IMG/VR virus record: IMGVR_UViG_3300034118_000624
Location: 1-23,311 of that record
Length of the DNA: 23,311 nt
From: a virus
Reading direction: 5' to 3' (one strand)
Part shown: one piece after another, positions 1-17,857 of the stretch
Position numbering within the stretch: the stretch's first letter is position 1
How the letters are laid out: each line of letters starts with the position of its first letter
The notes under the pieces: generated by a model
Database searches by the model: none
Seen by the model: the letters and a program-made list of their open reading frames with translations, nothing else
What the model was told of the DNA's origin: nothing
Made by a program: the position numbers and the translations under genes

Positions 1-70
1 GTTGGTTGGGCGAGGATGGTATCGGGACAAATTGGGACCAAAAAAGAAAAAGGGGAAATACCTTCGCGAC
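1..70 (+). other. Left end, non-coding leader of small terminase; possible half of cos/pac region
   Basis: No gene begins here. The reading frame of the small terminase stays open to the window edge, but its residues before Met at 71 are basic and low-complexity (GPKKKKGK), and the start-proximal TAnnTTCG element sits just before 71, so I treat this stretch as leader. It includes an A-rich run at about 40-58. If the genome is circular or cos-joined it continues from 23311, giving about 150 bp between HNH endonuclease and small terminase, where HK97-like phages often carry the packaging site. That placement is inference. Confidence 0.4.
59..66 (+). promoter_or_regulatory. TAnnTTCG start-proximal element before small terminase
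   Basis: TACCTTCG, followed by four bases and then ATG at 71. It resembles the Bacteroidota -7 element (TAnnTTTG). The same spacing recurs before the portal, connector, chaperone and 15832 genes. No convincing TTTG lies 19-21 bp upstream (a TTG at 32-34 is 24 bp away). Promoter function is inferred. Confidence 0.4.
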
Positions 71-394
71 ATGGAGTACATGAACGACGCGCAACGGGCG
101 CAGTTGGCTGAATTGGTGGCTAAATGGAGCGCCTACAAGACGCTGAAGGTGGACGACTACGTCCGGCTTGAGCTGCTGGCCTGCGTCCTGGTGGAGGTGA
201 GCCAGCTGCAGGCGTACGTCAACACCAACGGCACGACCTACCAGGTGGTGGGAAAGAGCGGCGACACGTACAGCCGGGCGCGGCCGGAGTACCAGCAGCT
301 GCAGGAGCTACGCCAGCGGGCGTCGGTCATCATCGACAAGCTGGTGAAGGACGCCGCGCCGGTGGATGACGAATACAGCGAGCTGCTTGCCTGA
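71..394 (+). CDS. terS: Terminase small subunit, P27-like
   Basis: 107 aa. It probably recognises phage DNA at the packaging site and loads the large terminase subunit. The sequence is helical and charged, with the pattern NTNGTTYQVVGKSGDTYSRARPEYQQL at about residues 50-72 followed by a helix (LRQRASVIIDKL), which is the usual core of P27-family small terminases (NG.....G....HP......L). I chose ATG 71 because the TAnnTTCG element lies 4 nt before it and because the upstream extension is low-complexity. It overlaps the large subunit by 29 nt, the normal order for HK97-like phages. The short length fits the family. The family call rests on motif recognition only. Confidence 0.75.
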   Translation: MEYMNDAQRAQLAELVAKWSAYKTLKVDDYVRLELLACVLVEVSQLQAYVNTNGTTYQVVGKSGDTYSRARPEYQQLQELRQRASVIIDKLVKDAAPVDDEYSELLA

Positions 395-1919
395 ATACTA
401 CTTCGACGACGCTGCTGCCGACCGCGCCGTCCAGTTCATCGAGACGTTTGGCTCCCACGTCAAGGGGCACAGTGGCGCGTTCCTGCTGGAGCCGTGGCAG
501 AAGGACGACATCATCCGCCCGCTGTTCGGGTGGAAGCGTGCCGACGGGCTGCGCAAGTACCGCACGTGTTACGTGGAGATTCCGCGCAAGAACGGAAAGT
601 CGAACCTGTCGGCCGTCATCGCTTTGTACCTGCTGCTCGGCACCAAAGAGGCAGGCGCCGAAATCATCAGCGCGGCCGGTGACCGCAACCAGGCCCGCAT
701 TGTCTACGACATCGCCGCTCAAATGGTCCGGCAGAACAAGACGCTGGCCAGCCGGTGCCGCGTGCTCAAGAATGAAATCCACTACAAAGGCAGCTTTTAC
801 AAGTCCATCAGCGCGGAGGCCTCCACCAAACACGGCTTCAACTGCTCGGGTATCATCTTCGACGAGCTGCACACCCAGCCCAACCGCGACCTGTGGGACG
901 TGCTGACCACGTCGGTAGGCGCACGGGCCGAGCCGCTCATTATCGCCCTGACCACCGCCGGACACGACACGGCCTCCATATGCTACGAGGTGCACGAGTA
1001 CGCCCTGCGCGTGAAGCGCGGCGAGATTGATGACCCCACATTCCTGCCGGTGCTGTACCACGCCGACCCCGGCGACGACTGGACGCAGCCGGAGACGTGG
1101 AAAAAAGCCAACCCCGGCTTTGGCTCCATCTGCCGGGCGGAGTATTTTGAGCAAGAGGTGATGAAGGCCAAGGCCAACCCCAACCACGTGAACACCTTCA
1201 AACGGCTGCACCTGAACATATGGACCGGCAGCTCGACCGCGTGGATTACAGACGACGAGTTCATGCGCGGCGGAGCACCGTTGCCCGATGACGACTACTT
1301 GGCTACGCTGCCCTGCTGGGGCGGCCTCGACCTCGCCTCCACCCGCGACCTCACCGCTTTCGCCCTGCTCTTTTGGGACGAGGTGGTGCAGGTGCACTAC
1401 CTCAAGGTGCACCAGTTCGTGAACGAGGAGCGGGCGCACAGCAAGAAGCTGGCGGAAGGGGTGGACTACCTGGCGTTTGAGCGGGACGGTGACCTGACTA
1501 TCACACCAGGCAACGTCACCGACTACCGCATCGTGCGCGACCACATCCTCACCGCCTGCGAGAAGTACCAGGTGGCGGGCGTCGCCTTCGACCGCAAGTT
1601 CTCCACCTACATCGTGCCCGAGCTCATCGACGCCGGGGTGGAGATGCTGCCGTTTGGGCAGGGCTTCTACGACATGAGCTACCCCACAAAGCAATTCGAG
1701 ATGAAGCTGGTGGCCGGCGAAATCATCCACGGCGGCAACCGCTGCCTACGCTGGCAGGTGGGCTGCGTCAAGCTCGACCGCGACCCGGCCGACAACATCA
1801 AGGTCGGCAAGAACCGCAACAAGCTGGGCCAGCAGGTGGACGGCGTCGTCGCGTCCATCATGGCGCTGGGCATCAGCGACAACGACGACAACCTCATCAC
1901 AGAAGTGTTTACCCTGTAG
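366..1919 (+). CDS. terL: Terminase large subunit (HK97-type ATPase/nuclease)
   Basis: 517 aa packaging motor: an N-terminal ATPase drives DNA into the prohead and a C-terminal RNase H-like nuclease cuts the concatemer. Visible motifs are a Walker A variant EIPRKNGKS (residues 71-79), Walker B with catalytic acid GIIFDELH (D166/E167), and a coupling motif LTTAGH (195-200). The nuclease domain has acidic clusters GGLDLASTRDL (D322) and VAFDRKFS, with VDGVVASIMALG near the C-terminus. Length is typical of the Terminase_1 / HK97 gp2 group. ATG 366 overlaps the small subunit by 29 nt. The group often uses cos ends, which suits the organisation at the window ends, but this sequence alone does not prove cos packaging. 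Confidence 0.95.
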   Translation: MTNTASCLPEYYFDDAAADRAVQFIETFGSHVKGHSGAFLLEPWQKDDIIRPLFGWKRADGLRKYRTCYVEIPRKNGKSNLSAVIALYLLLGTKEAGAEIISAAGDRNQARIVYDIAAQMVRQNKTLASRCRVLKNEIHYKGSFYKSISAEASTKHGFNCSGIIFDELHTQPNRDLWDVLTTSVGARAEPLIIALTTAGHDTASICYEVHEYALRVKRGEIDDPTFLPVLYHADPGDDWTQPETWKKANPGFGSICRAEYFEQEVMKAKANPNHVNTFKRLHLNIWTGSSTAWITDDEFMRGGAPLPDDDYLATLPCWGGLDLASTRDLTAFALLFWDEVVQVHYLKVHQFVNEERAHSKKLAEGVDYLAFERDGDLTITPGNVTDYRIVRDHILTACEKYQVAGVAFDRKFSTYIVPELIDAGVEMLPFGQGFYDMSYPTKQFEMKLVAGEIIHGGNRCLRWQVGCVKLDRDPADNIKVGKNRNKLGQQVDGVVASIMALGISDNDDNLITEVFTL

Positions 1920-1923
1920 TTCC

Positions 1924-1931
1924 TACCTTCG
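1924..1931 (+). promoter_or_regulatory. TAnnTTCG start-proximal element before portal
   Basis: TACCTTCG, then five bases (CCACA), then ATG 1937. It lies in the 17-nt gap between large terminase and portal. No TTTG element at 19-21 bp spacing. Same layout as at 59, 5122, 7990 and 15819. Confidence 0.4.
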
Positions 1932-1936
1932 CCACA

Positions 1937-3133
1937 ATGGCCACACTCCTCGAACGTCTCGGCATCCAAAAGCGGGCCCGCGTGGGCAAGTTCGACAGCC
2001 AAACCATAGGCGCCGAGCTGGGCGTCTACGGCATGACGGCGTCAGGCATCACTGTTAGCGAGCAGGGCGCCCTCGCCATCTCGACCGTATACGCCTGCAT
2101 CTACCGCATCGCGTCCACCGTCAGCTCCCTGTCGCTGAACATCTACCTGCGCGAAGGCAGCCGCGTGACGCTGGCCGAGTCGCATCCGGCCTACGACCTG
2201 TGCAAGTACGAGCCCAACAGCTACCAGACGGCTATGGAGTTTTGGGAACGGCTGTACAGCTCGGCCCTTATGTACGGCGTGGGCTATGCGATGATTACGC
2301 GCGACAACAGCGGCCGCCCCGTCGCCCTCGACCTGCTCGACTACTACGACGTGGAGCCGAAGCTGGTGGGCAATGAGAAGGTGTACAGCGTTCAGGGCGT
2401 GGGCGTGGTCCGTCCGGAGAACATGCTGGAGCTGGCCAACATCATGCGCATGTCGCCGCTGCGCCTGCACCGGGAAAACCTGGGGCTGACGAAGGCCGCG
2501 CAGGATTTTGGGGCGGAGTACTTCGGCAACGGCGGACAGGCCACCGGCATCCTCAAGCCAAAGAACCCACTGAAGCCGGAGCAGGTGGACACGCTGCGCA
2601 AGTCGTGGAAGCACGGCGGCCCTGGCGTCAAGTTCCTTGGCGTGGACATGGACTACCAAAGCATCCAGCTCCAGCCGGAGGAGGCCCAGTTTATCGAAAC
2701 CCGCAAGTTTCAGGCGGAGGAGATTTGCCGCATTTTCAGCGTACCGCCCGACCTGGTGCAAGTGCCGGGACAGTCGACCTTCAACAACGTCGAGCAGCAG
2801 CACATCCAGTTTGCCCGCCATACCATTCAGCCGTGGGCCGTCCGCCTGCAGCAGGAGGTGGACCGCAAGCTCATCGCCAGCTTTGACCGTCCTCAGGTCT
2901 ACAGCCGCCACGACATGACCGACCTGTACCGTGGCGACATGGCCGCTCGTGCCAACTTTTACACGCAAATGCTGCAGGCCGGGGTGTTGTCCATCAACGA
3001 GGCCCGCGCCAAGGAGGACCTGAACCCCGTCGCAGGCGGCGATATCCACACCGTCCAGGTCAACCAAATTGCCCTGTCGGAGTTCGGTGCATATTCGCAA
3101 AAAATAGCAAATGAAAACACAGGAAGCATTTGA
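1937..3133 (+). CDS. Portal protein, HK97 family
   Basis: 398 aa. It forms the dodecameric ring at the capsid vertex through which DNA enters and to which the neck attaches. Family features visible: N-terminal ALAISTVYACIYRIASTVSSL (about residues 46-66), a middle YGVGYAMITRD segment, IMRMSPLRLH, GNGGQATGIL, and the late motif AEEICRIFSVPPDLV (about residues 260-274) followed by FNNVEQQHIQFARHTIQPWAVRLQQEV. These are the standard blocks of HK97 gp3-like portals, and the length is normal. It is followed by the protease-capsid gene with a 23-nt overlap. The ATG choice is supported by the start-proximal element. Confidence 0.95.
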   Translation: MATLLERLGIQKRARVGKFDSQTIGAELGVYGMTASGITVSEQGALAISTVYACIYRIASTVSSLSLNIYLREGSRVTLAESHPAYDLCKYEPNSYQTAMEFWERLYSSALMYGVGYAMITRDNSGRPVALDLLDYYDVEPKLVGNEKVYSVQGVGVVRPENMLELANIMRMSPLRLHRENLGLTKAAQDFGAEYFGNGGQATGILKPKNPLKPEQVDTLRKSWKHGGPGVKFLGVDMDYQSIQLQPEEAQFIETRKFQAEEICRIFSVPPDLVQVPGQSTFNNVEQQHIQFARHTIQPWAVRLQQEVDRKLIASFDRPQVYSRHDMTDLYRGDMAARANFYTQMLQAGVLSINEARAKEDLNPVAGGDIHTVQVNQIALSEFGAYSQKIANENTGSI

Positions 3134-5072
3134 GCAGGAGGTCCGCGCCCAGTATGGGGAGGCGGTAGAACTGCGCGTCAGCGAGGTCCGCGCGGCCTCC
3201 GATGACACCCTTACCGTCAGCGGCTACGCTGCCATGTTTGACGACATCACCGACCTCGGCTACTTCAAGGAGCGCATCGCCCGCGGAGCTTTCGACGGGG
3301 TAATGGAGGACGACGTCCGGCTGCTCATCAACCATGCCGGCGTCCCGCTGGCACGCACCACCAACGGCACCCTCGACCTCGAGGTGGACGAGACCGGCCT
3401 GCGCTACACCGCACGCCTGGCGGACACCACCGAAGGGCGCGACCTGTACAAGCTCATCAAGCGCGGCGACATCTCGCAGTCGAGTTTCGCCTTTACGATT
3501 GCAGAGGAGGACTACGACCGCAAGGCCAACCTGCGCACCATCACAAAGATGGGCAGCCTGCTCGACGTTAGCCCGGTCACTTATCCAGCTTACCCCACTA
3601 CCACGGTGGCCGCTCGCATGAAGGCGCAGCAGGAGGAGCGCTCTATCGACCCGGAGGACGAGGAGCTGCTTGACGACATCTTGGAAGCTATCGACGAAAT
3701 CAAGGTAAAAATCGAAGAGGCCAAAGCCGTCGAGGAGCAGGAGGACGTCATGCCCGCCGCACCCGTAAATTCTGAACGCAGTACATTCGCACAAACTAAA
3801 CCCCAGACCATGAACTTGAATGAATTGAAGGCGCTCCGCGCCAAGTACTACGAGGAGCACGTCGCCCTCGTGGAGAACCCTGACAAAGAAGGCCGCCAAA
3901 TTACCGAAGCTGAAGAGCAGCGGGCCGAGTGGTTGGTTGCCGAGGTTGCATCTTTGGACAAGCGCATCAAGCACCGCGCCGACCACGAGAAGATGGTCGC
4001 CCGCATGGTGGGTGGTGAGGCAGTGAGCCGCGGCGAAGAGCGTGAAATCGAGAAGCTGAATGGCAAGTTTAGCCTGTCGCGCGCCGTATTGACTGCAGCA
4101 AACGGCCGCTCGTTGGAAGGTATCGAGGCAGAGTGGGCACAGGAGGCACAGCGTGAGATGCGGGCCCAGGGCTTGCAGGCTGTCGGCCAGGTGGCCATTC
4201 CAATGAAGGCGCTGTACCGCGGTGCTGCTGACAACTTTACCGCGACTATTGGCAACGGAGACGGCGAAGGCTTTGTGCCAATTAACGTTCCCGGCGCTAT
4301 CGGCTCCCTGATTTCTCCGTCTGTCATCGAGCGGTTGGGCACGACTGTCATCAACGGAGCTACGGGGAACCTCAAGTTCCCGCGCGTGTCTGTCGCACCT
4401 ACCGGAACGGCTGAAGGCGAAGTGGATGCTAACGCAAACAGCGGCATGGAGATGGACGAGCTGACCCTCAGCCCGCAGCGGGTTTCTGCGAAGACCACCT
4501 ACTCCAAGCAGCTCCTCCTCCAGGGCGGCGCAGCAGTGGACATGGTCATCGCGCAGGAGTTGAACCAAGCCATGAACAAGTTCATCGACACGAAAGCCTT
4601 CGACACGCTCGACGGCGCTACCATGAACGACCTGAGCACGGCTGGCGTAACGAACACGGTGTTCAACGCAGCCCTCGCTGTGGCTATGGAAGCTGCTGTC
4701 CTCGCTGACGGAGCCGACCTGTCAAACTGCTACTACGTCATGAGCCCGTACGCTTACCAGCTTGCGAAGAATCTCGCACAGGTTTCCTCCGTATCTGCTC
4801 TCTTCGACCTCAGCACGAACACCTTCAACGGCTACCGCGCTATTGCCACGCCGTACCTGGTGGACACGACCGCTGGCTCGGTGGGACAGCTGCTCTTCGG
4901 TAACTTCCAGCAGGGCGCCATCCTCGCCTACTTCGGAGGTATCGACCTGCTCGTCGACCCGTACAGCGCAGCAGGCAACGCGCAGATTGTCCTGCACGTC
5001 AACCGCTTCTTCGATTTCGACGTTCGCCAGGCGAACGCCCTCGCGAAGTGCAACGACGCTGCAGCGTCTTAA
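3111..5072 (+). CDS. Fused prohead protease-major capsid protein (HK97 fold)
   Basis: 653 aa, one uninterrupted frame. Residues about 20-170 are an HK97-type prohead protease: LLINHAGVPLART carries the expected catalytic His (H75) and ISQSSFAF the catalytic Ser (S122-S125 region), followed by LLDVSPVTYPAYP. Residues 175-225 are acidic and helical. From M234 (MNLNELKALRAKYYEEH) a coiled-coil delta/scaffold domain runs to about 310, then the HK97 capsid fold (FVPINVPGAIGSLISPSVIERLG, LSPQRVSAKTTYSKQLL, FDFDVRQANALAKCN at the end). The protease would process the scaffold region after assembly. In most relatives protease and capsid are separate genes. An in-frame ATG at 3810 preceded by TACATTCG could give free capsid protein. 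The start overlaps the portal by 23 nt. Highly confident of both domains; the expression mode is inference. Confidence 0.92.
   Translation: MKTQEAFEQEVRAQYGEAVELRVSEVRAASDDTLTVSGYAAMFDDITDLGYFKERIARGAFDGVMEDDVRLLINHAGVPLARTTNGTLDLEVDETGLRYTARLADTTEGRDLYKLIKRGDISQSSFAFTIAEEDYDRKANLRTITKMGSLLDVSPVTYPAYPTTTVAARMKAQQEERSIDPEDEELLDDILEAIDEIKVKIEEAKAVEEQEDVMPAAPVNSERSTFAQTKPQTMNLNELKALRAKYYEEHVALVENPDKEGRQITEAEEQRAEWLVAEVASLDKRIKHRADHEKMVARMVGGEAVSRGEEREIEKLNGKFSLSRAVLTAANGRSLEGIEAEWAQEAQREMRAQGLQAVGQVAIPMKALYRGAADNFTATIGNGDGEGFVPINVPGAIGSLISPSVIERLGTTVINGATGNLKFPRVSVAPTGTAEGEVDANANSGMEMDELTLSPQRVSAKTTYSKQLLLQGGAAVDMVIAQELNQAMNKFIDTKAFDTLDGATMNDLSTAGVTNTVFNAALAVAMEAAVLADGADLSNCYYVMSPYAYQLAKNLAQVSSVSALFDLSTNTFNGYRAIATPYLVDTTAGSVGQLLFGNFQQGAILAYFGGIDLLVDPYSAAGNAQIVLHVNRFFDFDVRQANALAKCNDAAAS
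3782..3789 (+). promoter_or_regulatory. Internal TAnnTTCG element before in-frame capsid Met 3810
   Basis: TACATTCG inside the protease-capsid gene. It ends 20 nt before the in-frame ATG at 3810, where the capsid delta domain begins, and the intervening sequence is A/C-rich. Spacing resembles that before the major tail protein (18 nt). It could be an internal promoter producing capsid alone. No TTTG is seen at the expected -33 position. Confidence 0.35.
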
Positions 5073-5092
5073 TTGACCTGACACTATAGGCG

Positions 5093-5121
5093 AAGGCCCG
5101 GGGCACTCCCCCGGGCTTTCG
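5093..5121 (+). terminator. Hairpin between capsid and connector genes, likely partial terminator
   Basis: A perfect 8-bp stem GCCCGGGG / CCCCGGGC (5096-5103 with 5109-5116) has a 5-nt loop. Outer G-U and two A-U pairs extend it to about 11 bp, and TTTC follows. The T-run is short, so it may attenuate rather than stop transcription. It sits in the 61-nt gap after the capsid gene and immediately before the start-proximal element of the connector gene. Confidence 0.6.
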
Positions 5122-5129
5122 TACTTTCG
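5122..5129 (+). promoter_or_regulatory. TAnnTTCG start-proximal element before connector
   Basis: TACTTTCG, then GGCC, then ATG 5134. It follows directly on the capsid-distal hairpin, which would fit transcription restarting here. Function is inferred from recurrence. Confidence 0.4.
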
Positions 5130-5133
5130 GGCC

Positions 5134-5700
5134 ATGGTTACCACCGTCAAGGTCACGGGCACCCCGGTGCTCAACGACATCATCACCGTCGCGGACCTCA
5201 AGACCTTCTGCCGCGTCGACAGCGCCGACGAGGATACGCTGATGGACGCGCTGCGACAAACAGCTATATCATGGTGCGAGCAGTACTGCAGCATCCGCCT
5301 CGGCGACGTCGCAGCCATAGCCTACGCTGACGCGTGGGCGCCGCTCGGCATTAACGTTGGGCCGGTGCAAAGCATCACCTCAATCACGTACCTGTCGACG
5401 GCCAACACGACGCAGACGCTGGGGGCGAGCTACTACTACTCCGACCTGAACAGCCAAATCGCACGCATCCGTTTCGTCAGTCCGCCGGACCTGTACGACG
5501 ACGCCCTCAACCGGGTGCAGGTGAACTGCGTCATCGGCTACCCTGAGGCGTCTGTGCCGAAGCCTATCCTGCAGGCCATCCGTATCCTGGTGGGACACTT
5601 CTACGAGAACCGCCAGCAGGTCGTCACCGGCACCATCGCCACCGCCGTACCCTTTGCGGTGGAGGCCCTGCTATCACCCTACCGCCTGCTGCATCCATGA
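5134..5700 (+). CDS. Head-tail connector, gp6-like
   Basis: 188 aa. Probably forms the ring docking under the portal. The N-terminal third has the typical pattern of gp6/YqbG-like connectors: VADLKTFCRVDSADEDTLMDALRQTAISWCEQYCSIRL (about residues 22-59), meaning a short helix, an acid-rich turn with DED, then a long helix. The end (PKPILQAIRILVGHFYENRQQV, then FAVEALLSPYRLLHP) is also characteristic: a helical segment with Y/F-ENR and a final L-L-S-P-Y-R. Length is ordinary. ATG 5134 is supported by the start-proximal element, and the stop overlaps the next start as ATGA. Position between capsid and head-closure gene agrees. Confidence 0.85.
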   Translation: MVTTVKVTGTPVLNDIITVADLKTFCRVDSADEDTLMDALRQTAISWCEQYCSIRLGDVAAIAYADAWAPLGINVGPVQSITSITYLSTANTTQTLGASYYYSDLNSQIARIRFVSPPDLYDDALNRVQVNCVIGYPEASVPKPILQAIRILVGHFYENRQQVVTGTIATAVPFAVEALLSPYRLLHP

Positions 5701-6011
5701 AGATAGGAACCCTTGACCGCCGCGTAGAGATTCAGAACTATGTGACCACGCGCGACACATGGAACTACCCTGTCGAAACATGGTCGACGCTGGCGGAGGT
5801 ATGGGCGTCGCGCCGCGACCGGAGCAGCGGCGAAGTGACGGAGGTCATGAAATCGGTGCAGCTGAACCGCACGGAGTGGACGGTGCGCTACCGCTCCGAC
5901 GTAGACACCACCATGCGCATCATGCACGACAGCACGTACTACTACATCGTGGGCATCGTGCAGATAGGACGCAAAGAGGGACTGCTGCTCATCACTGAAC
6001 TTCGCGACTGA
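5697..6011 (+). CDS. Head closure / head-tail joining protein (gp16-like)
   Basis: 104 aa beta-barrel type protein, likely the stopper ring under the connector. It shows the family pattern: MKIGTLDRRVEIQNY at the start (the G-x-L-[DR]-x-R-[IV]-x-[IL]-[EQ] signature), W near the middle (WSTLAEVWASRR), SGEVTEVMKSVQLNRTEWTVRYR, then YYYIVGIVQIGRKEGLLLITELRD at the end. Length matches SPP1 gp16 / HK97 joining proteins. It starts by ATGA overlap and ends by TGATG overlap, so it is translationally coupled on both sides. Confidence 0.88.
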   Translation: MKIGTLDRRVEIQNYVTTRDTWNYPVETWSTLAEVWASRRDRSSGEVTEVMKSVQLNRTEWTVRYRSDVDTTMRIMHDSTYYYIVGIVQIGRKEGLLLITELRD

Positions 6012-6652
6012 TGGACATCAGGCCGAGGTCCAAGGTCATCAAGTCGCAGCTCGGCAGCTTCGGCTTTGACGGGCGCCAGCTGAAGGCCATCGAGGACGAG
6101 CTGATGAGCATGCCGCTGCGCTACCGCGCCAAGGCACTCATCGGCCCTATGAAGACCGCGCTCGGTATCACCAAACGCCAGGCGGCAGCTAACGCGCGTG
6201 CGAGCGCCCGCACGGGCAACCTCGCCAAAGCTATTCAAGTAGTGGAAGGGAAGGACAAGCGTTACACCTACGTGGTGCTGCGCGTCAATCCGAGGACCAG
6301 CTACTACCTCCCGGCACCGGCGTGGATGGACCGCGGCCAGCCACAGCTGCAGCGCCCTATCAAGTACGCCCACCTCGTTGCCGGAGGCACAAAGGCAGGG
6401 CTGCGCACCAACCGCGAACTGCAGGACGGACGCCGCAAACACTTTACCGTACGCAACGAGGAGAGCGGAAAGGTGCACCGCCTGTCGCAGTGGCTGACCC
6501 CTAAGGTGCCAGGCATCCAGCACCCCGGCACCCCGGCAAACAATTTTATTGAAGACGCATGGACGGCTACGCAGGATGCGGCTGAAGCCAAGTTCCGCGA
6601 CATCGCCATCGACCGAATTCTCAAGTTCAAAAACAGGCAAGGCTTCAAATGA
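6011..6652 (+). CDS. Neck / tail completion protein, HK97 gp10-like
   Basis: 213 aa, basic. Residues about 25-70 contain a helix and ITKRQAAANARASARTGNLAKAIQVVEGK, the R-T-G-x-L..A/S-I pattern of gp10-like proteins. A segment with PIKYAHLVAGGTKAG matches the usual Y-A-x-x-V-E-x-G-T region. PGIQHPGTPANNFIEDAW near residue 175-190 matches the P-x-P-F-[LI]-x-x-A ending of the family. At about 210 aa it is longer than the compact 130-150 aa versions because of an insertion around residues 100-160. Order between head closure and tail terminator supports the role. Confidence 0.8.
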   Translation: MDIRPRSKVIKSQLGSFGFDGRQLKAIEDELMSMPLRYRAKALIGPMKTALGITKRQAAANARASARTGNLAKAIQVVEGKDKRYTYVVLRVNPRTSYYLPAPAWMDRGQPQLQRPIKYAHLVAGGTKAGLRTNRELQDGRRKHFTVRNEESGKVHRLSQWLTPKVPGIQHPGTPANNFIEDAWTATQDAAEAKFRDIAIDRILKFKNRQGFK

Positions 6653-7416: not shown

Positions 7417-7428
7417 TTGACACTCCCT

Positions 7429-7436
7429 ATCTTCAC
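7429..7436 (+). promoter_or_regulatory. TAnnTTC element before major tail protein
   Basis: TATCTTCA ends 18 nt before ATG 7455. The leader after it is A/C-rich with a run of six A, the composition associated with strong translation in Bacteroidota. It lies in the 38-nt gap after the tail terminator gene. A TTGACA lies only 6 bp upstream of it, too close for a standard promoter pair. Confidence 0.4.
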
Positions 7437-7454
7437 CAAAAAATCTGAACCATC

Positions 7455-7982: not shown

Positions 7983-7989
7983 GTCGCTG

Positions 7990-7997
7990 TAACTTCG
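7990..7997 (+). promoter_or_regulatory. TAnnTTCG start-proximal element before tail chaperone
   Basis: TAACTTCG, then GGGC, then ATG 8002, inside the 19-nt gap after the major tail protein. No -33 partner is recognised. Confidence 0.4.
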
Positions 7998-8001
7998 GGG
8001 C

Positions 8002-8352
8002 ATGACTAACACGCTCCGCGGACAATTCGACGTGAAGCTCGGGGGCGACCTCGAGCTTCCGTGTTTCCTGAACCTCCACGCCGTGAACCTCGTCTGCGAG
8101 GAGCACGACCTGAACCTCACAGGCTTCCAGCAGGCGCTGGCCGAGAAGCCTCTCAAGTTCCTGCCGCTCTTCATTTGGGCTGGAGTGCGGACCGCTGCTG
8201 TCTTAAACGACAGCGAGCTGCCTATCACCTTCGAGAAGTTCAGCGTGCTGTTCGGCTCTACCGACTGGTCAGAAATCACCGAGAAGGTGGGCCTGGCCAT
8301 GGCTCTTGACGCGCCAAAAAAAGCGACGGCTCGGGGCCAGCAGAAGAGCTAA
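8002..8352 (+). CDS. Tail assembly chaperone, unshifted product (G-like)
   Basis: 116 aa. It sits between major tail protein and tape measure, the fixed position of the G/GT tail assembly chaperones, which coat the tape measure before tube polymerisation. MTNTLRGQFDVKLGGDLELPCFLNLHAVNLVCEEHDLNLTGFQQAL and the following IWAGVRTAAVLN suit the all-helical chaperone fold of small-tail phages. Codons 106-107 are AAA AAA after CCA, so the mRNA carries seven A in a row. Slippage there leads to the longer product. Unshifted reading stops ten codons later, at TAA 8350-8352. Confidence 0.8.
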   Translation: MTNTLRGQFDVKLGGDLELPCFLNLHAVNLVCEEHDLNLTGFQQALAEKPLKFLPLFIWAGVRTAAVLNDSELPITFEKFSVLFGSTDWSEITEKVGLAMALDAPKKATARGQQKS

Positions 8353-8681
8353 CGCTTCGAGCCCTGTACGTCGAAGCTCTGCGCCGCGGCCTCAAGCCGC
8401 CCGACTTCTGGTGTAGTACCTTCGGGGAGGTGATGGTAATGCTACGCACATACGAGCACAGCGATGAGCTGGCGTGGATGCGGACCTCGGCGATGATGGC
8501 CATGCAGGCCAACATCCACCGCGGAAAGAATTCACGGCCGTATGACTGGAACGACTTTAACCCGTACGCTTCGCAGCGTCGCAGGGCCACGCCACCTCCG
8601 AAGATTACCCCCAAGATGGCCGACCTGTTTGGCCGCATGGGAAAAACTATGAAGCATGGCCAAGAAAAACGCGGTACTTAA
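8002..8681 (+). CDS. Tail assembly chaperone, -1 frameshift product (GT-like)
   Basis: Predicted 226 aa: 107 residues in the first frame up to nucleotide 8322, then a -1 slip so that reading resumes at 8322 (AGC GAC GGC). It continues without a stop to TAA 8679-8681. The second frame lacks a good start near its beginning, fills the otherwise empty 8353-8432 interval, and reads as a plausible protein (LRALYVEALRRGLKPPDFWCSTFGEVMVMLRTYEHSDELAWM). Its early E-A-L-R-x-G-x-x-P-x-x-F-W resembles the T part of other siphovirus chaperones. It overlaps the tape measure start by 26 nt. Independent initiation at ATG 8433 remains possible, since TACCTTCG occurs at 8417-8424. Confidence 0.78.
8316..8322 (+). 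promoter_or_regulatory. Programmed -1 frameshift slippery site (A AAA AAA)
   Basis: Seven A read as CCA AAA AAA in frame. Both tRNALys can re-pair after a -1 slip, a classic slippery heptamer. GC-rich sequence follows directly (GCGACGGCTCGGGGCC), which may fold as a stimulator. Slipping joins two frames that otherwise have an 80-nt gap with no independent explanation. Confidence 0.78.
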
Positions 8682-10848
8682 TATCATTTTCGGCGCCGAC
8701 ACCAAGGAGCTGGACAAAGCTCTGCAGGGTGTAGCGAAGCGCCTGCGCAGCACGGCCGACGACCTGAACGGGCTAGGCCAGTCGCTGTCGCTCGGCTTGA
8801 CTGCACCCATCGTGGCGTTTGGGGCGCTGGCCACCAAGAACGCCGTCGACAGCGCCAAGGCCATCGCGCAGGTGGAGGCTGCTGTCAAGTCGACCGGCGG
8901 AGCTGCAGGCAAATCCGTTGCTGACTTAGAAGCGATGGCCGAAGGCTTGCAGCGTATCAGCCTGTATGACGACGACCAAATCCTCAAGGAGGTCACGGCC
9001 AACCTGCTCACCTTTACCAACGTCACCGGCACCCAGTTTGACAAGGCGCAGGTGGCTATCCTCAACCTGTCGACCCGTTTGGGCACGGACTTGACGAGTG
9101 CTTCGGTGCAGGTAGGCAAGGCTTTGAACGACCCTATCAAAGGCGTGACGGCTCTTGGCCGCGCCGGGGTGCAGTTCACCGCAGAGCAGAAGGAACTCAT
9201 CACCACACTCACGGAAAGCGGCGACGTAGCCGGTGCGCAGGCTATCATCCTGGGTGAGCTTGAAACCCAGTTCGGAGGAGCAGCGGAGGCAGCGGCCAAC
9301 GTCGACCCCTACACGCAGCTGGCCAACGAGGTAGGCAACCTGTCGGAGGACTTCGGCGCAATCATCAACGACGCTATCAAGCCGCTGGTCCGTTACGTCC
9401 GTCAAGCGGTGGACGCTATCAAAGGCTGGAGCGACGAGACCAAAGCAACGGTGCTCGTGGTAGGCGGCCTGCTCGCCGTCCTAGGCCCCACCCTCATCGC
9501 GGTGGCTGGCCTCATCAACGCCTACACCACTATCAAAGGCGCGCTGCTGGCGGCCAAGACCGCACAAATAGGTTTGAATGTGGCAACATTAGCCAACCCG
9601 TACGTGCTGGCTGCAGCTGCTGTAGTAACCCTTGGCATAGCCATTTATGGCATGAACCAAAGGGCAACCGATGCAGCAGACCAGGTAAACAAATTGACGA
9701 ACGCGGTGCGCGAGTTGAGTGCTCAAGAAGCTATCGCAGAAGTCAACAAAGCCATCACTGAACAGACGACGAAAGTCCGAAAGCTGCAGGAGACCTACGA
9801 TACACTACAGAAGCAACGCGAGACAGGTGACCAATTTGATAAACGCATTGCCAGCCAACGCAAACAACAAGCTCGTGATGAGTTAGCAAACGCTCAAAAG
9901 ACCTTGCAAGGGTATGGCGATTTATTAGATGCTAAGAAAAAAGATTTAGCCGCTGAACAAGCTGCAGCAAAAGCCGCACAGGACACGGCAAAGGCTGTAA
10001 CCACAGCAAACACCAAAATCAAAGAGAGCGCCTACGACCGTTTTGTGCGGGTTAACAAGGCATATATGGCCGAGCAGCAAGCCATTGAGGACTTAAATGC
10101 CGAGATGAACAAGACGCTGCTGACCATTGAAAGCCTCGGCGAAGGGCCTTCGGTAGCGGAGGCTTTGTTAGGCAAAGCACCTGAAGCTCCATTCATGATG
10201 AACCTCATGGATTTGGAGATGCAGGACGAGCTCATCCCCGAAGAGGCCATCGAAGGGGCCGACAGATATGTTGCTGCATTTATGCGCGCTCGCAACGCAG
10301 CCGTAGAGTTTAACTATGCCGTTAGTCAAGCCGTCGAGCAGGCAGCCGAAAGCATGGCCTACAACTTCGGCGAGATGCTCGGCACGGCCATGGCTACGGG
10401 CGACGGCATGCAGGGCCTCGGGCGCATGGTGCTCGGCACCCTCGCCGACCTCGCCGTGCAGGTGGGAAAAATTGCCATCGGCGTAGGTATGTCTGTCGAA
10501 GGCATCAAGAAGGCGCTGCAGTCGCTTAACCCCGTCCTCGCCATCGCCGCAGGTATCGCCCTCGTGGCGCTCGGCTCCTACGCCCGCACCCGCCTGAGCG
10601 AAAGCGCCGGCGGTGGGGTGCCTGCCTTTGCGCAGGGCGGCCTCGTCACCGGCCCGACGCTCGCCATGGTGGGCGACAACCGGAGCGGAAAGGAGGCCAT
10701 TATCCCCTTCGAGCGCATGGGCGAGTTCCTGCAAATGGCAGGAGCACAGCAGCAGAACGTCGTCGTGACCGGCCGTATCTCCGGCAACGACATCCTACTC
10801 ACTAACGACCGGGCCAGCCGCGACCGGTCACGCATCCGCGGATTCTAA
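8656..10848 (+). CDS. Tape measure protein
   Basis: 730 aa. It sets tail length and is ejected into the cell envelope with the DNA. It is the longest tail gene, directly after the chaperones, and alanine-rich with a helical character. Start MAKKNAVLNIIFGADTKELDKALQGVAKRLRSTADDL is typical of siphovirus tape measures. Hydrophobic segments are visible at about residues 265-290 and 310-333, a long charged coiled-coil region at about 345-475, and another hydrophobic stretch at about 590-650. The Ala/Gly-rich end FAQGGLVTGPTLAMVGDNRSGKEAIIPFERM matches the conserved C-terminal tape measure motif (GG-x-V-x-G-P-T...G-[ED]). At 3 residues per 4-5 angstrom it suggests a short tail of roughly 100 nm. 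Base composition drops in GC between about 9570 and 10090. Confidence 0.92.
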   Translation: MAKKNAVLNIIFGADTKELDKALQGVAKRLRSTADDLNGLGQSLSLGLTAPIVAFGALATKNAVDSAKAIAQVEAAVKSTGGAAGKSVADLEAMAEGLQRISLYDDDQILKEVTANLLTFTNVTGTQFDKAQVAILNLSTRLGTDLTSASVQVGKALNDPIKGVTALGRAGVQFTAEQKELITTLTESGDVAGAQAIILGELETQFGGAAEAAANVDPYTQLANEVGNLSEDFGAIINDAIKPLVRYVRQAVDAIKGWSDETKATVLVVGGLLAVLGPTLIAVAGLINAYTTIKGALLAAKTAQIGLNVATLANPYVLAAAAVVTLGIAIYGMNQRATDAADQVNKLTNAVRELSAQEAIAEVNKAITEQTTKVRKLQETYDTLQKQRETGDQFDKRIASQRKQQARDELANAQKTLQGYGDLLDAKKKDLAAEQAAAKAAQDTAKAVTTANTKIKESAYDRFVRVNKAYMAEQQAIEDLNAEMNKTLLTIESLGEGPSVAEALLGKAPEAPFMMNLMDLEMQDELIPEEAIEGADRYVAAFMRARNAAVEFNYAVSQAVEQAAESMAYNFGEMLGTAMATGDGMQGLGRMVLGTLADLAVQVGKIAIGVGMSVEGIKKALQSLNPVLAIAAGIALVALGSYARTRLSESAGGGVPAFAQGGLVTGPTLAMVGDNRSGKEAIIPFERMGEFLQMAGAQQQNVVVTGRISGNDILLTNDRASRDRSRIRGF

Positions 10849-12929
10849 TGGCATACAACCTCCGACTATACAGCGAGTTCACGGACTACGAAGGCGACAC
10901 GTGGCGCGTCAACATCTATCAGGACAGCTACGGCGGCTCCAGCTCCAGCTTTACGCTCGGCGCGGACGGCTTCATCCTGACCTATGAAGGCGACAACCAA
11001 AGCCGGTACCAGCCCATCATCGGCTCGTCCGTGGAGATACCCTTCACGGAGACGACCGCCGCGCATACCAATTTCCTGAACGCCATTGCCACGTCGGCAG
11101 AAGGCGACTTCACGGTGGGCATCTTTCGCGACCCCGACGGAGCGAACACGCTGTACTGGGGTGGCGTTCTGCTCGGCGACCAGTGCGTGCTGGTGGACGA
11201 GGCCATGCCGCGGCGGGTGCAGCTGAAGGCGGCCGATGACCTGGGCAACCTAAAGCAGGTGCTGTACAACAACAACGGCGCAGGCTACGGCGGACACGAC
11301 ACCGTACCGGAGCACCTCATCATTTCGCTGTCGCTGGTGCGCCATTCGCACCTGTGGACCTCGGCGACGGTGATGCTGAAGTACGTCGACGACTTCTTCC
11401 CAGAGAACGCACCAACGGCCAGCAACTACCTCAGCCAAGTCACCGTATATCACAACGGCTTCTACAACCCGGACGAGGACGGAGTTAACCAATTTTTGCC
11501 TACGTATACCATACTGGAGTCCTTCGCGACCGCGTTCAACGCGCGCATCTTTCAGGCCAACGGCACGTACTGGTTCCTGCCTATCGGCGCGCAGCAGTAC
11601 GACGACACCATCAACTACTACACCGTTACCAAAGGCGGCACCATCAGCGGCTCAAGTACCAGCCTCGCCACCGCCCTCACTATCGAAAGCGACGCCATTA
11701 AGCTCCGCGGCTACGAGCACAGCTTTCTGCCGCCGCTCAAGTCGGTGGTTCGGACGCAGAACTACAGCGGAAACATCCCGCGCATCTTCAGCAACCTGCA
11801 CCCCAAAGCGGCGTTTGGTACGACATTAAGCGATGCCGACTTCGACTTCGACCAGGACAGCCTGTTCCGCCTCACCGGGACGTTCCGCTGCACGCAGCCA
11901 GGCGACAACACCACCACAGGGAACAGCCGCCTCAAGCGGTTCCGCCTGCGCTTCACCCTCAAGGTAGGCAACTACTACCTTAAGCGGCTCGCCACCTTCT
12001 CTGGCACGGCCTACGAGTTTCAGATGGAGGCGGGCGAGGTGCTCACCTACACGCCACACACCTACGGAGCGACGTCGTGGGAGCTGTCCGCAACGTATTA
12101 CGAAGTAATTACCCCGTACTATGACCTCAACCGCGGGCTCACCGGCGACACGACCATGGTCCTGCCGCTCAACTTCATCACGCCCGAGCTGACCGCCGCG
12201 TCCAACGGCATGGACCTGACGCTGGCCATCTCCAACGTCAGCGACACCGGAGGCATCTCCGCGGTGACCAACGTAGACACCAACTACAGCGTGCAGCTGC
12301 TGCGCGTGGACCAAATTGACGAGGACGAAACCAACGGCGATGAGGTAACGTACACCGCCACCGGCCTGTCGAGCAGCCGCGTGCAGTACGAGCAGGCCAA
12401 GGTGTACGTCGGCGATGCCGTCAGCACCAGCAGCCTCGGCGTGCTGCGCGTTGTCGATTTTCCGGACCTGCCGCTGGCAACGGGGTGGCAGTCGCTCAAC
12501 TACACCAGCACGGCCATAGGCATCCACCTGCTCGGCGTGCGCGAGGTGCTCGGCGGACAGCGCGTTCACACAAGGACGCAACGCGGTACCTTCTACAAAG
12601 GGCCCATCGAGATGTACAACCTGCTCAGCGATGATGGAGACCTGTACCTCCCGTTCCAGCTGACGTTCTACGCCAACCGGCGCCAGGTGGAGGTGGAGTC
12701 CTTCTTTGTGGCCCGCGACCTGACCGGCATCACTGCTGACGACGGAGGCCGGCGCAACGTCAACCCGCCGGTGGACGGTCTACCCGGTAAGCCTGAGACC
12801 AACGTAATCGTCGGGCTGGCCAACGCAAATGCAAATGTTGGAGGCCTCAGCACCGACCTCAACGCCAAGGTCGCAGACGCCGAGCTGCTTACCATATTTT
12901 TACCCATATCCTTCGATAAGCTCCGATAA
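10848..12929 (+). CDS. Tail tip / baseplate structural protein
   Basis: 693 aa, no motif that gives a precise role. It follows the tape measure with a TAATG overlap and precedes the fibre, which is where distal tail and tail-tip (hub) proteins lie. The first 140 residues (LRLYSEFTDYEGDTWRVNIYQDSY, then FILTYEGDNQSRYQPIIGSSVEI, VGIFRD, WGGVLLGDQC, RRVQLKAADDLGNLKQV) have the strand-rich, aromatic look of a distal-tail-like domain. The rest is beta-rich with many Thr/Tyr/Asn. I recall similar long proteins in this position in Bacteroidota siphophages, so a combined tail-tip component is likely. Receptor contact is possible but unproven. Confidence 0.65.
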   Translation: MAYNLRLYSEFTDYEGDTWRVNIYQDSYGGSSSSFTLGADGFILTYEGDNQSRYQPIIGSSVEIPFTETTAAHTNFLNAIATSAEGDFTVGIFRDPDGANTLYWGGVLLGDQCVLVDEAMPRRVQLKAADDLGNLKQVLYNNNGAGYGGHDTVPEHLIISLSLVRHSHLWTSATVMLKYVDDFFPENAPTASNYLSQVTVYHNGFYNPDEDGVNQFLPTYTILESFATAFNARIFQANGTYWFLPIGAQQYDDTINYYTVTKGGTISGSSTSLATALTIESDAIKLRGYEHSFLPPLKSVVRTQNYSGNIPRIFSNLHPKAAFGTTLSDADFDFDQDSLFRLTGTFRCTQPGDNTTTGNSRLKRFRLRFTLKVGNYYLKRLATFSGTAYEFQMEAGEVLTYTPHTYGATSWELSATYYEVITPYYDLNRGLTGDTTMVLPLNFITPELTAASNGMDLTLAISNVSDTGGISAVTNVDTNYSVQLLRVDQIDEDETNGDEVTYTATGLSSSRVQYEQAKVYVGDAVSTSSLGVLRVVDFPDLPLATGWQSLNYTSTAIGIHLLGVREVLGGQRVHTRTQRGTFYKGPIEMYNLLSDDGDLYLPFQLTFYANRRQVEVESFFVARDLTGITADDGGRRNVNPPVDGLPGKPETNVIVGLANANANVGGLSTDLNAKVADAELLTIFLPISFDKLR

Positions 12930-14671
12930 TGGCGAACAACTTCAAGGTCAAGAACTTCAGCAACAGCGCCACGAATACCTCGCAGGCGCTCTTCACCGCG
13001 TCCGCCTCGACCACGCTGGTCAAGTCCATCATCGTGAACTGCGACAAGGCCACGCCCAACGCCACGGCCACACTAAAGCTCAAGAAGAGCGGAGGCGCCG
13101 AGGAGCTTATCAAGCGGGTGACGGTGACGAGCCAAGACGTGAGCACGGAGCTGCTGTACGACGTGCTGCCGCTCGAGGCCGGTGATGCCCTTTACGCGAC
13201 CAGCAGCGACACCGACCTCAACTTCATGATGTCGTGGGTGGAAAACACGACTGGTGCCATTGGTGCCTCTTTAGATGCTCTCAGCGACGTCGACACCACG
13301 GGGGTGGCCAACGGCGACGTGCTGACCTACAACAGCACGAGCGGCAACTGGGAACCGGAGGCGCCCGCAGCAGGTGGCGACATCTTCAAGACCATTGCCG
13401 TCGCAGGGCAGAGCAGCATCGTGGCGGACAGCAGCACCGACACGCTGACCATTGCAGCAGGCACCGGAATCACCCTGACCACCGACGCTGGCACCGACAC
13501 CTTGACCATCACCAACAGCGCGACGGGTGCCAATGCCTTTGGCAGCGTGGCGGTAGCTGGGCAGACAACGGTGGAAGCGGACTCTACAGGGGACACTCTT
13601 ACCCTCGTTGCAGGAACGGGGGTAACAATTACCACTAATGCGGGGGCGGATAGCATCACGATAAACAGCACGATTAACTCATTTAGTAATATCGCCGTAT
13701 CGGGACAATCGAATGTGATAGCGGACAGCGCGGGGGATACCCTCACGCTGGTCGCAGCCGGGGGGATGACTATTACTACCGCAAGCGGAACTGATACTAT
13801 AACCTTTGACAGCGCACGGCTCGATGACGATGACGTGACATTGAGCGGGACCCGGACCATTGACCTAAACGGAGAGGAGTTTATATTTACATCCGGAGTT
13901 GCCAACGTAATTGAAATTAGCGGAGGCTCGGCGGTTTTGCCAAGCACAACAATACGCTCGACCGACGGGGCGGTGGCGTCATATATTACTTTGTTCGAGG
14001 CTCCAAATAACGGGGGGGCTTATATCACTTTACAAGCACCCGCACAGCTAACCGCTAGTACCACCTTTACCCTCCCTTCTGCCGACGGGACCAACACACA
14101 GGTGCTACAGACTAACGGCTCCGGAACGCTTTCGTTTGTCTCTCTGATGACCACGGCGGCCACCGCGTCCGTAGGTGCCTACCTCGAGCTGAAGGAGGCA
14201 GCCAACAACGGCACCAACTACATCCGCCTGCAAGCTCCGGCCACACTCGCCGCGGACAAGACGTACACGCTGCCAGCGACCGACGGCAGCAACGGCGACC
14301 GACTGACGACGGACGGCAGCGGCACTCTTTCATGGTCCGCTGTGACCACCGGGGCCAGCTACAGCACCGTGCGCACACAGTCCGGCACCACGTACACCCT
14401 CGTGCTCGGAGACGCGGGCGACTACATCCAAACCACGAGCACCACGGCCGTAACTATCACCGTTCCGAACCAAGTAACGGTAACGTGGGCGGCAGATACG
14501 GAAATCTATTTTGAGCAGAACAACACCGGTCAAATCACATTCGTAGGTGCCAGCGGCGTGACCATTAACAGCAGCGAAACCCTCAAGACCTTCGCGAGGT
14601 ATTCGGTGGTGGCGCTTAAGCGGGTGGCGTCCGACGTGTGGACCTTAACTGGAGAACGCGCACTGGTATGA
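12929..14671 (+). CDS. Repeat-containing tail fibre protein
   Basis: 580 aa, rich in Thr, Ser, Gly and Asp. Residues 1-125 form an N-terminal domain that probably attaches to the tail tip. Three tandem copies of about 43 residues (155-197, 206-247, 254-295) share I/V-AV-x-GQ-x-x-x-x-AD-S-x-x-DTLT-x-x-A-x-x-G-x-T-x-x-T. Two further copies of about 65 residues (about 340-406 and 408-473) share E-A-x-NNG-x-x-Y-I-x-LQAPA-x-L, then T-x-x-LP-x-x-DG, then T-x-GSGTLS. Such beta repeats are typical of trimeric phage fibres. The C-terminal 100 residues (TYTLVLGDAGDYIQTT, AVTITVPN) look like a compact beta domain. TAATG start overlap, ATGA overlap with the LamG gene. The GC content falls in the middle of the gene. 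Confidence 0.8.
   Translation: MANNFKVKNFSNSATNTSQALFTASASTTLVKSIIVNCDKATPNATATLKLKKSGGAEELIKRVTVTSQDVSTELLYDVLPLEAGDALYATSSDTDLNFMMSWVENTTGAIGASLDALSDVDTTGVANGDVLTYNSTSGNWEPEAPAAGGDIFKTIAVAGQSSIVADSSTDTLTIAAGTGITLTTDAGTDTLTITNSATGANAFGSVAVAGQTTVEADSTGDTLTLVAGTGVTITTNAGADSITINSTINSFSNIAVSGQSNVIADSAGDTLTLVAAGGMTITTASGTDTITFDSARLDDDDVTLSGTRTIDLNGEEFIFTSGVANVIEISGGSAVLPSTTIRSTDGAVASYITLFEAPNNGGAYITLQAPAQLTASTTFTLPSADGTNTQVLQTNGSGTLSFVSLMTTAATASVGAYLELKEAANNGTNYIRLQAPATLAADKTYTLPATDGSNGDRLTTDGSGTLSWSAVTTGASYSTVRTQSGTTYTLVLGDAGDYIQTTSTTAVTITVPNQVTVTWAADTEIYFEQNNTGQITFVGASGVTINSSETLKTFARYSVVALKRVASDVWTLTGERALV
13391..13813 (+). repeat. Three tandem 43-residue coding repeats in the fibre gene
   Basis: Copies at about 13391-13519, 13544-13669 and 13688-13813, each ending with a T-[DN]-S or N-S step. 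They are conserved at protein level (VAGQ/VSGQ, ADS, DTLT, G-x-T-x-x-T) but diverged at DNA level: the first copy uses GC-rich codons and the third uses AT-richer ones. Confidence 0.85.
13946..14343 (+). repeat. Two 65-residue coding repeats in the fibre gene
   Basis: Approximate boundaries. Both copies carry a Y-[IL]-x-L-[FK]-EA..NNG..YI-x-LQAPA-x-L segment, a T-[FY]-TLP segment followed by DG-[TS]-N, and an L-T/Q-x-x-GSGTLS ending. The second copy is visibly more GC-rich than the first. Confidence 0.8.
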
Positions 14672-15459
14672 TGTTCCTAAATGCAGTGGCCGCCGGGCGG
14701 CGAAGGTATCCTGTAATCACCGACGGCCTCAAGTTGTACCTCGACGCGTACAACCTTGACAGCTACAGCGGCTCTGGAGGCACGTGGACGGACTTATCCA
14801 ACAGCGGGTACAACTTTACCATAACCGGGCCGACATGGACCACCAGCGGAGGCCGGAGGTACTTCGAATTTGACGGGGTGAATGATTACATGATAGGCTC
14901 GGCATCCACCTCCATCTTTGACATGAATACCAGCGGCTTCACGTGGTCCTTTTGGATTTATTACGTGACCTCGCCTGCCGTTCTGGATGTAGTTGTGTTT
15001 AGCGAATTTGTAAACACTGGCGGCGCTTTGGTTCGTTATTACGTTTTGGACAATAGAAACACAGACGCGGGGAGCGGAACAGGCGCTGGCTACATGATAG
15101 CTTTATTTAAGGCTGCCCCCAACATTATTGATACGCGCACCACATACGCTGAAACCGTGCCCACAGGTAGCTGGTTCCAGTTGACTGGTACCTTTACGTA
15201 CAACTCAAGCACCACAGGCACCCTGAAAATCTACAAAAATGGTTCCCAAGTAGTAACCGAGGACCACACAATCACAGGCACCACTTGGAGCGCTATGAAC
15301 AGCTTTTTAAAGCCAGTCCTTGGGGCTTTGTCTTTGAATGGTGCATATAGCCGATTCAACAACATCCGTCTAGGTGAGGTGCTACAATACAACCGACCAC
15401 TAACTGCCACCGAAGTAGACAACAACTACCAAAGCACGAAAACGAATTACGGGCTATGA
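14668..15459 (+). CDS. LamG / concanavalin A-like receptor-binding protein
   Basis: 263 aa. Start MMFLNAVAAGRRRYPVITDGLKLYLDAYN leads into the standard opening of LamG-type jelly-roll domains: D-G-L-x-L-x-L-D-A, a G-T-W-x-D-L-S-x-S-G-x-N block, then RRYFEFDGVNDYM (about residues 70-82) and FTWSFWIYYV. Later come TGTLKIYKNGSQV and a final RLGEVLQYNRPLTATEVDNNYQ, the closing signature of this fold. Position directly after the fibre suggests a fibre tip or adhesin that binds surface glycans. The ATGA overlap with the fibre gene fixes the start (ATG 14668; 14671 also possible). From about 14880 the sequence is richer in AT than the tail genes upstream, as often seen in exchanged adhesin genes. 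Confidence 0.8.
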   Translation: MMFLNAVAAGRRRYPVITDGLKLYLDAYNLDSYSGSGGTWTDLSNSGYNFTITGPTWTTSGGRRYFEFDGVNDYMIGSASTSIFDMNTSGFTWSFWIYYVTSPAVLDVVVFSEFVNTGGALVRYYVLDNRNTDAGSGTGAGYMIALFKAAPNIIDTRTTYAETVPTGSWFQLTGTFTYNSSTTGTLKIYKNGSQVVTEDHTITGTTWSAMNSFLKPVLGALSLNGAYSRFNNIRLGEVLQYNRPLTATEVDNNYQSTKTNYGL

Positions 15460-15680
15460 ACGAATACTGGTACCACCTTTACACCCTCGCGGAACTGCCG
15501 AGCGTCCCGTGGAACTTGTTTAAGCAGACGCTGCTGTGGAACCTTGCGGGCACGGAGTTCATGCTGGAATACAAAGAAGAACCTGCCGACAAGACCGGCG
15601 TGCTCACCCGCGAAGAGGCGGCCGAGTTGAGCAAGACGGACGCATGGCAAAACAACGACCCCAACCTTGGCCAAGGCTAA
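15456..15680 (+). CDS. Small unknown protein downstream of adhesin
   Basis: 74 aa, start ATGA overlap with the adhesin stop. It has an aromatic N-terminus (NEYWYHLYTLAELPSVPWNLFKQTLLW) and a charged C-terminal half (EEPADKTGVLTREEAAELSKTDAW). No signal peptide or clear TM segment. I recognise no family. Its place between the adhesin and the lysis region could mean a fibre-associated or virion accessory protein, but nothing in the sequence proves it. Its last 14 nt overlap the small basic gene that follows in another frame. Confidence 0.6.
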   Translation: MNEYWYHLYTLAELPSVPWNLFKQTLLWNLAGTEFMLEYKEEPADKTGVLTREEAAELSKTDAWQNNDPNLGQG

Positions 15681-15807
15681 AGCACAAGCCCAGCCCGTCC
15701 GCATAGAGCGGCAGGTAAGCAGGCCCGGCGTCCACGCCAAGACAAAGCAGGGAACGCACAAGCGCGGCAAGAACTGGCGCAAGCCGTACAAAGGACAAGG
15801 CAGGTAA
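15667..15807 (+). CDS. Small basic protein ending in PYKGQGR
   Basis: 46 aa if started at TTG 15667. There is no ATG in this frame. The product is strongly basic: RPGVHAKTKQGTHKRG followed by KNWRKPYKGQGR and a stop. I recall a family of tiny phage proteins with the ending G-V-H-[AS]-K-T-K ... K-N-[YW]-x-K-x-Y-x-GQGR in Bacteroidota-infecting phages, placed near lysis or tail genes; the recollection is not checked here. The frame otherwise fills a gap between two well-supported genes and carries a coherent conserved-looking end. Function unknown; the basic charge would allow nucleic acid binding. Confidence 0.6.
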   Translation: MAKAKAQAQPVRIERQVSRPGVHAKTKQGTHKRGKNWRKPYKGQGR

Positions 15808-15818
15808 TTCACCTGCAG

Positions 15819-15826
15819 TATATTCG
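15819..15826 (+). promoter_or_regulatory. TAnnTTCG start-proximal element before lysis module
   Basis: TATATTCG, then five bases (CCGCC), then ATG 15832. Just upstream is a 6-bp inverted repeat GCAGGT / ACCTGC (15800-15805 with 15811-15816, loop AATTC) without a T-run. The copy closest to TAnnTTTG in the late genes. Confidence 0.45.
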
Positions 15827-15831
15827 CCGCC

Positions 15832-17694: not shown

Positions 17695-17739
17695 TACGCA
17701 CACACTACGCAGGCGATTCTGTTTGATTTGATTTGGTTG

Positions 17740-17769
17740 GGGCCTCAGAACGCTGGGGCCCTTTCTTTT
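17740..17769 (+). terminator. Rho-independent terminator of the late operon
   Basis: The stem GGGCCTCAG / CTGGGGCCC (17740-17748 with 17753-17761) forms 9 bp with one G-U pair and a 4-nt loop AACG, followed by TTTCTTTT. It comes 45 bp after the last late gene and directly before the early promoter. Confidence 0.88.
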
Positions 17770-17798: not shown

Positions 17799-17830
17799 TT
17801 TGGAGTGATGGGAAACGTGCTGTAACATTG
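17799..17830 (+). promoter_or_regulatory. Bacteroidota-type early promoter
   Basis: TTTG at 17799-17802, a spacer of exactly 20 bp, then TAACATTG at 17823-17830, close to the TTTG / TAnnTTTG consensus. The expected transcription start is near 17836, giving a leader of about 22 nt before ATG 17858. The upstream sequence is A-rich (17781-17798). It follows the late terminator, so it should drive the early and replication genes. Confidence 0.75.
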
Positions 17831-17857
17831 CCGAGTCAAATCAAACAGACACACATC

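Follow-up and report, generated by a model that had tools for sequence, protein, structure and literature searches.

The promoter of the Bacteroidota primary sigma factor (sigma-ABfr) consists of a -33 TTTG and a -7 TAnnTTTG element. In Flavobacterium johnsoniae, positions T-12, A-11, T-8, T-7, T-6 and G-5 of the -7 element are nearly invariant, no G occurs at -10/-9, the element lies 4-5 nt from the start site and there is hardly any -33 signal (PMC6847099). In F. psychrophilum, -7 boxes were found at -12 to -5 (PMC9723704). According to published descriptions, few mRNAs of the Bacteroidota species studied are leaderless, and the late promoters of phages of this phylum are little described. 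Leaderless transcripts or very short leaders amount to 3.7% (under 10 nt) in B. thetaiotaomicron (PMC7366714) and to 5.5% in F. psychrophilum (PMC9723704), and a survey of 37 Bacteroidetes/Chlorobi genomes detected leaderless genes in a single one (PMC3160421).

The late boxes described here resemble the sigma-ABfr promoter in the TAnnTT.G core, in the distance of 4-5 nt to the predicted start and in the lack of G in the variable pair, and both boxes of that promoter are present at the early promoter of the phage family. Unlike the known promoter, the late sites lack a -33 box, often carry C instead of T at -6 and have their predicted start on or next to the ATG. A -33 element that is weak or absent genome-wide is shared with the -7-only promoters of Flavobacterium, although F. 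johnsoniae transcripts, unlike the predicted late mRNAs of the phage, are mostly leadered (87% over 10 nt, PMC6847099). The leaderless genes of Actinobacteria and Deinococcus-Thermus (TANNNT about 12 bp before the start) also have a -10/-7 box at leaderless distance, but differ from the phage boxes in sigma preference and in the TT.G end. No description of systematic leaderless-spaced Bacteroidota-type -7 boxes at phage late genes was found in the open-licence papers searched. What is new is the combination, namely Bacteroidota-type -7 boxes that stand systematically at leaderless spacing for the late genes of a phage.

Late boxes in the window and in related phages

The window, which is the whole stretch of DNA analysed, is a linear viral contig of 23,311 bases with about 60% GC. 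Most of the longest related contigs measure 25-26 kb, and the window therefore probably covers the greater part of a genome. Relatives of its TerL are encoded on 80 viral contigs (37-100% identity), to which further scans added more. No tRNA genes were found, and the Rfam search gave no match. The late genes lie on the + strand in the standard order of tailed phages: TerS, TerL, portal, protease/major head protein, connector and neck genes, major tail protein, tail chaperone, tape measure, tail proteins and an M15-type endolysin, after which the small early genes follow. The putative late promoter boxes and a hairpin next to one of them are located as follows.

59..66, + strand: late promoter box TACCTTCG; N4, then the ATG of the terminase small subunit gene at 71
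1924..1931, + strand: late promoter box TACCTTCG; N5, then the portal ATG at 1937
5092..5120, + strand: terminator-like hairpin (fold z -3.5) behind the major head protein gene, directly 5' of the box at 5122
5122..5129, + strand: late promoter box TACTTTCG; N4, then the head-tail connector ATG at 5134
7990..7997, + strand: late promoter box TAACTTCG; N4, then the ATG of the tail chaperone-like gene at 8002
15819..15826, + strand: late promoter box TATATTCG; N5, then the ATG of the first gene of the lysis module at 15832

An earlier, sequence-only reading had placed TAnnTTCG-N4/5-ATG at these five late-gene starts, and all five sites are present, with the T of TA at -12 or -13 from the ATG. 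The frequency is above chance: the + strand has five sites, compared to a mean of 0.051 and a maximum of 2 in 1000 dinucleotide shuffles. The pattern occurs nowhere else on this strand and not once on the - strand of the window. TA..TTCG is also the commonest word of its shape before ATG in the window. At any position in the genome, 11 copies of TAnnTTCG were counted compared to 5.9 expected, which is a slight excess; the non-random feature of the motif is placement, not abundance. The motif was picked after inspection of the window and the independent test is therefore provided by the relatives.

A related copy claimed before the major tail protein gene (7429) did not hold up, as it reads TATCTTCA, lacks the G, lies 18 nt from the ATG and is not kept in diverged relatives. 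The tail chaperone gene and the next frame (8002-8681) resemble a pair of tail assembly chaperones linked by a frameshift, and the second frame has a conserved S-T-F-G-E-V-M stretch at 8417. The copy of TACCTTCG at 8417 was rejected as a promoter box, since this stretch is read in the relatives and codons explain it better. At 3782, 16847 and 19887, the copies look like coding sequence and are not followed by an ATG at the required spacing; they were likewise discarded.

Among the relatives, the box at orthologous starts takes the form TAnnTT(C/T)G. In a set of 65 diverged loci (583 kb), in which an ATG was counted if it opened at least 60 codons, the spacing from TAnnTTYG to the ATG was N4 in 18 cases, N5 in seven and N6 in four, with one case at N0-3 and about 0.9 per position further out. 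Control words gave a flat distribution and the opposite strand was empty. When similar contexts were merged, 15 cases remained at N4 and six at N5. Counted in distinct orthologous upstream regions, TAnnTTYG-N4-6 was present at the portal gene in 9/19 (TAnnTT in 14/19), at the connector gene in 4/11 (TAnnTT in 7/11) and at the gene starting at 15832 in 3/4 (TAnnTT in 4/4). At coupled genes it was absent throughout: TerL 0/21, prohead/MCP 0/21, g5697 0/16, g6649 0/11 and TMP 0/9. In the first locus set, the five gap genes carried the box in 17/46 distinct upstream regions and the coupled genes in 0/72 (p about 1e-8); the grouping follows the gaps seen in the window, and independence among related sequences is incomplete. 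The noted preference of the box for genes with an upstream gap is borne out, and the box recurs in related phages with a spacing peak at 4-5 nt.

Conservation differs between the sites. The TerS box is exact only in closer lineages, while distant TerS genes carry GAnnTTCG-N4/5-ATG (GACATTCG/GACCTTCG). The tail-chaperone box is also exact only in closer lineages; it reads TAAATTCG in L011 and TAAATTAG in L278 with unchanged spacing, and is absent in the L014-L027 clade. At the connector, relatives show TACTTTTG, TATTTTTG, TATTTTTA or TATTTTAG, again with unchanged spacing. The portal or connector box is missing in some lineages. In the clade of L054, L061 and L078, the portal gene has no box next to the ATG and a shared TATATT is located about 20-27 nt upstream, as though the promoter had been shifted to a leadered position.

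Of the 11 distinct connector upstream regions, 10 have a hairpin with a T-rich tail at this position. The hairpin is kept down to about 35-39% protein identity although its sequence changes, mostly with TAnnTT before the ATG. In the window, its T tract is interrupted and the hairpin was not called by the terminator scan. Standing directly 3' of this terminator-like hairpin, the connector box may restart transcription downstream of the major capsid gene.

TAnnTTYG occurs at 22 distinct late sites, with C or T at -6; the C at -6 of the phage in the window departs from the published T-6. A G in the two variable positions was found at 0/22 late sites, compared to 35/91 copies of the motif located elsewhere (p=1.6e-4), and this no-G rule played no part in finding the late sites. 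The distance from the box to the A of the ATG is 4-5 nt, and N4 would put this A exactly at +1. A TTG at -33 distance is present at none of the 22 late sites, in agreement with the earlier remark that the -33 TTTG is missing. The likeness to the Bacteroidota -7 element TAnnTTTG is strengthened by the relatives, which read TAnnTTTG at the same places, and by the matching spacing and no-G rule. At box spacing, the start codon was ATG in 34 cases versus one GTG at N4, and in 15 versus four at N5. A pyrimidine directly precedes the ATG at 18/22 late sites; in this pyrimidine/start pattern, the late sites differ modestly from other starts (p=0.03, from a smaller set). Other starts have a Shine-Dalgarno-like sequence in 2/70 cases.

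The early promoter and the late/early boundary

The last late gene stops at 17694 and the first early ATG is at 17858. Between and behind these positions the following features were assigned.

17739..17762, + strand: terminator hairpin with T tract at the late/early boundary (fold z -2.6); a different hairpin stands at the same place in relatives
17799..17830, + strand: putative early promoter TTTG-N20-TAACATTG, separated by 27 nt from the ATG at 17858, with a leader predicted at about 23 nt
17858..18361, + strand: first early gene, with its true start at ATG 17858 and a match to BT4734-like_N below the threshold

A loose match to the early promoter arises in 29% of shuffled windows, and the match in the window alone proves little. 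Relatives have the same layout at the same place, with a perfect TTTG-N20-TATGTTTG in L251, GTTG-N19-TATCTTTG in L040 and CTTG-N19-TACGTTTG in L263. Judged by its sequence, the early promoter of the relatives is a canonical Bacteroidota -33/-7 promoter. Given the -33 box and leader at this promoter and the lack of TTG at the 22 late sites, early and late promoters differ in the -33 box and in the leader.

An inverted repeat (TCTGTTTGATTTGA at 17718-17731 and TCAAATCAAACAGA at 17836-17849, arms about 105 nt apart) flanks the terminator and the early promoter. In relatives, the arms differ but stay complementary, e.g. TTGTTTGATT/AATCAAACAA and TTAGTTTGT/ACAAACTAA; among the most remote lineages, only 7-9 nt match. 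The arrangement suggests an operator pair or RNA pairing of the late 3' end with the early leader. Further downstream, a small early protein (20840-21094) has weak helix-turn-helix matches and is a candidate repressor or late activator.

Promoter grammar in bacterial genomes

In GC-rich Bacteroidota, TTTG-N19/20-TAnnTTTG outnumbers its reversed control (26 vs 2, 9 vs 1 and 16 vs 4), whereas it is not enriched in Phycisphaerae or Planctomycetota bins (1-4 vs 2-11 matches, both strands). The motif at leaderless spacing was not seen in the planctomycete genomes. Besides the BT4734-like_N match, another early protein has a sub-threshold Pfam match to DUF3127; both are mainly Bacteroidota families.

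The motif is frequent at leaderless spacing in G150 (loci L126, L170-L179 and L190-L209), a Bacteroidota genome with 55% GC and 272 predicted genes in 355 kb. At N3-6 before ATG it has 12 TAnnTTCG and 12 TAnnTTTG, with almost no control words, so that about 9% of its genes (24/272) carry the box. The box is commonest at divergently oriented genes (13/86, compared to 3/66 tightly spaced same-strand genes), and one copy follows a hairpin ending in ttcgTATTTTCGccccATG, as in the connector layout of the phage. This pattern suggests that leaderless mRNAs are unusually frequent in G150 for a member of the Bacteroidota. Other GC-rich genomes of its order (G355, G119) are mostly leadered, and leaderless spacing is not general there. 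The 34% GC genome G076 was dismissed as an enriched genome, as its pattern counts were misleading and its gene starts show ordinary leadered spacing; gene-start histograms replaced genome-wide pattern counts.

A GTDB scan returned mainly remote TerL matches in planctomycete bins. The sole close relative, L084 (JAGYIQ010000025.1), is in a bin named Pirellulaceae. The phage contig has 59% GC compared to 36% in the sampled contigs of the bin, and this host label is unreliable. A TerL profile run over 395 Bacteroidota genomes found no close relative, and a spacer search of the DNA of 123 genomes gave only matches of chance length without repeats. A 28-nt match in G355 raised an endolysin lead, which then failed. 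The genomes searched provided no direct phage-host link; from the promoter grammar, we infer that the host belongs to the Bacteroidota and is probably GC-rich.

Proposed late promoter class and alternative explanations

Taken together, the late blocks would each be transcribed from a -33-less promoter of the sigma-ABfr type that gives rise to a leaderless mRNA, a reading to which we assign a probability of roughly 0.78. The sequence-only reading had proposed such -7-like promoters and leaderless late messages, for which the spacing, the no-G rule, the TAnnTTTG of relatives, the early -33/-7 promoter and the GC-rich Bacteroidota genome now provide support. In TAnnTT(C/T)G, a Bacteroidota-type primary sigma factor would recognise the -7 element of the late promoters, and the first transcribed base would be the A of the ATG or one base off. 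A leaderless mRNA, translated as such, would start each block, i.e. TerS-TerL, portal-MCP, connector and neck genes, tail genes and lysis. The early operon would have a full TTTG-N19/20-TAnnnTTG promoter and a short A-rich leader free of Shine-Dalgarno sequences. Host RNA polymerase would transcribe the late blocks, perhaps with a phage activator.

Leaderless genes with a TANNNT box about 12 bp before the start occur in many phyla (PMC3160421), and TAnnTT plus N6-8 fits this layout. The boxes could thus be general sigma-70 -10 boxes (TAnnnT-N6-ATG) of leaderless genes, as in Actinobacteria or Acidobacteria, in a host outside the Bacteroidota, which would agree with the missing host link and with the planctomycete bins that hold most remote TerL matches. 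We consider this unlikely: -6 is preferentially Y and -5 preferentially G, TAnnTTTG stands in relatives, the early TTTG-N19/20-TAnnTTTG is not enriched in the planctomycete genomes tested, Shine-Dalgarno sequences are nearly absent and the sub-threshold matches are to BT4734-like_N and DUF3127. The box might also act in translation, as an initiation signal that substitutes for Shine-Dalgarno in a leadered polycistronic mRNA. Its fixed distance to the ATG and the Shine-Dalgarno-like sequences at just 2/70 other starts are in line with this alternative, which had been raised beforehand. However, the box never occurs at coupled genes, its two-base gap, conserved T-12, A-11 and T-7 and no-G rule fit a promoter -7 element, the connector box stands directly 3' of a terminator-like hairpin and G150 has its boxes preferentially at divergent genes (13/86 vs 3/66 at tight same-strand genes). 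A translation signal is therefore quite improbable, and much less likely than a promoter.

Cleavage of a single long late transcript just 5' of each ATG would explain why boxes occur only between genes and why one of them lies beside a hairpin. Such RNA-processing sites appear very improbable in view of the promoter rules, which were matched at every tested position, and of the same motif before divergently oriented genes of G150. Single sites such as 8417 do arise from codons and the plain count is only mildly raised, but chance or coding coincidence as a general explanation is statistically refuted by the shuffle, control-word, strand, orthology and spacing tests, and its probability is negligible.

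The sigma-ABfr-type promoter reading may extend to an early-to-late switch in both transcription and translation, a proposal that we regard as tentative and rather doubtful. Leadered early promoters with a -33 box would give way to a late class without it, perhaps dependent on an activator such as the helix-turn-helix-like protein at 20840-21094, and the leaderless mRNAs would use a different initiation route in a phylum in which such messages are thought to be rare.

If the promoter reading is true, the late promoters and true start codons of these widespread, uncultured phages could be recognised from the sequence by a simple rule, and the assignment of hosts from promoter grammar alone would gain support. 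Some GC-rich Bacteroidota may then rely on leaderless messages to a far greater extent than the model species of the phylum.
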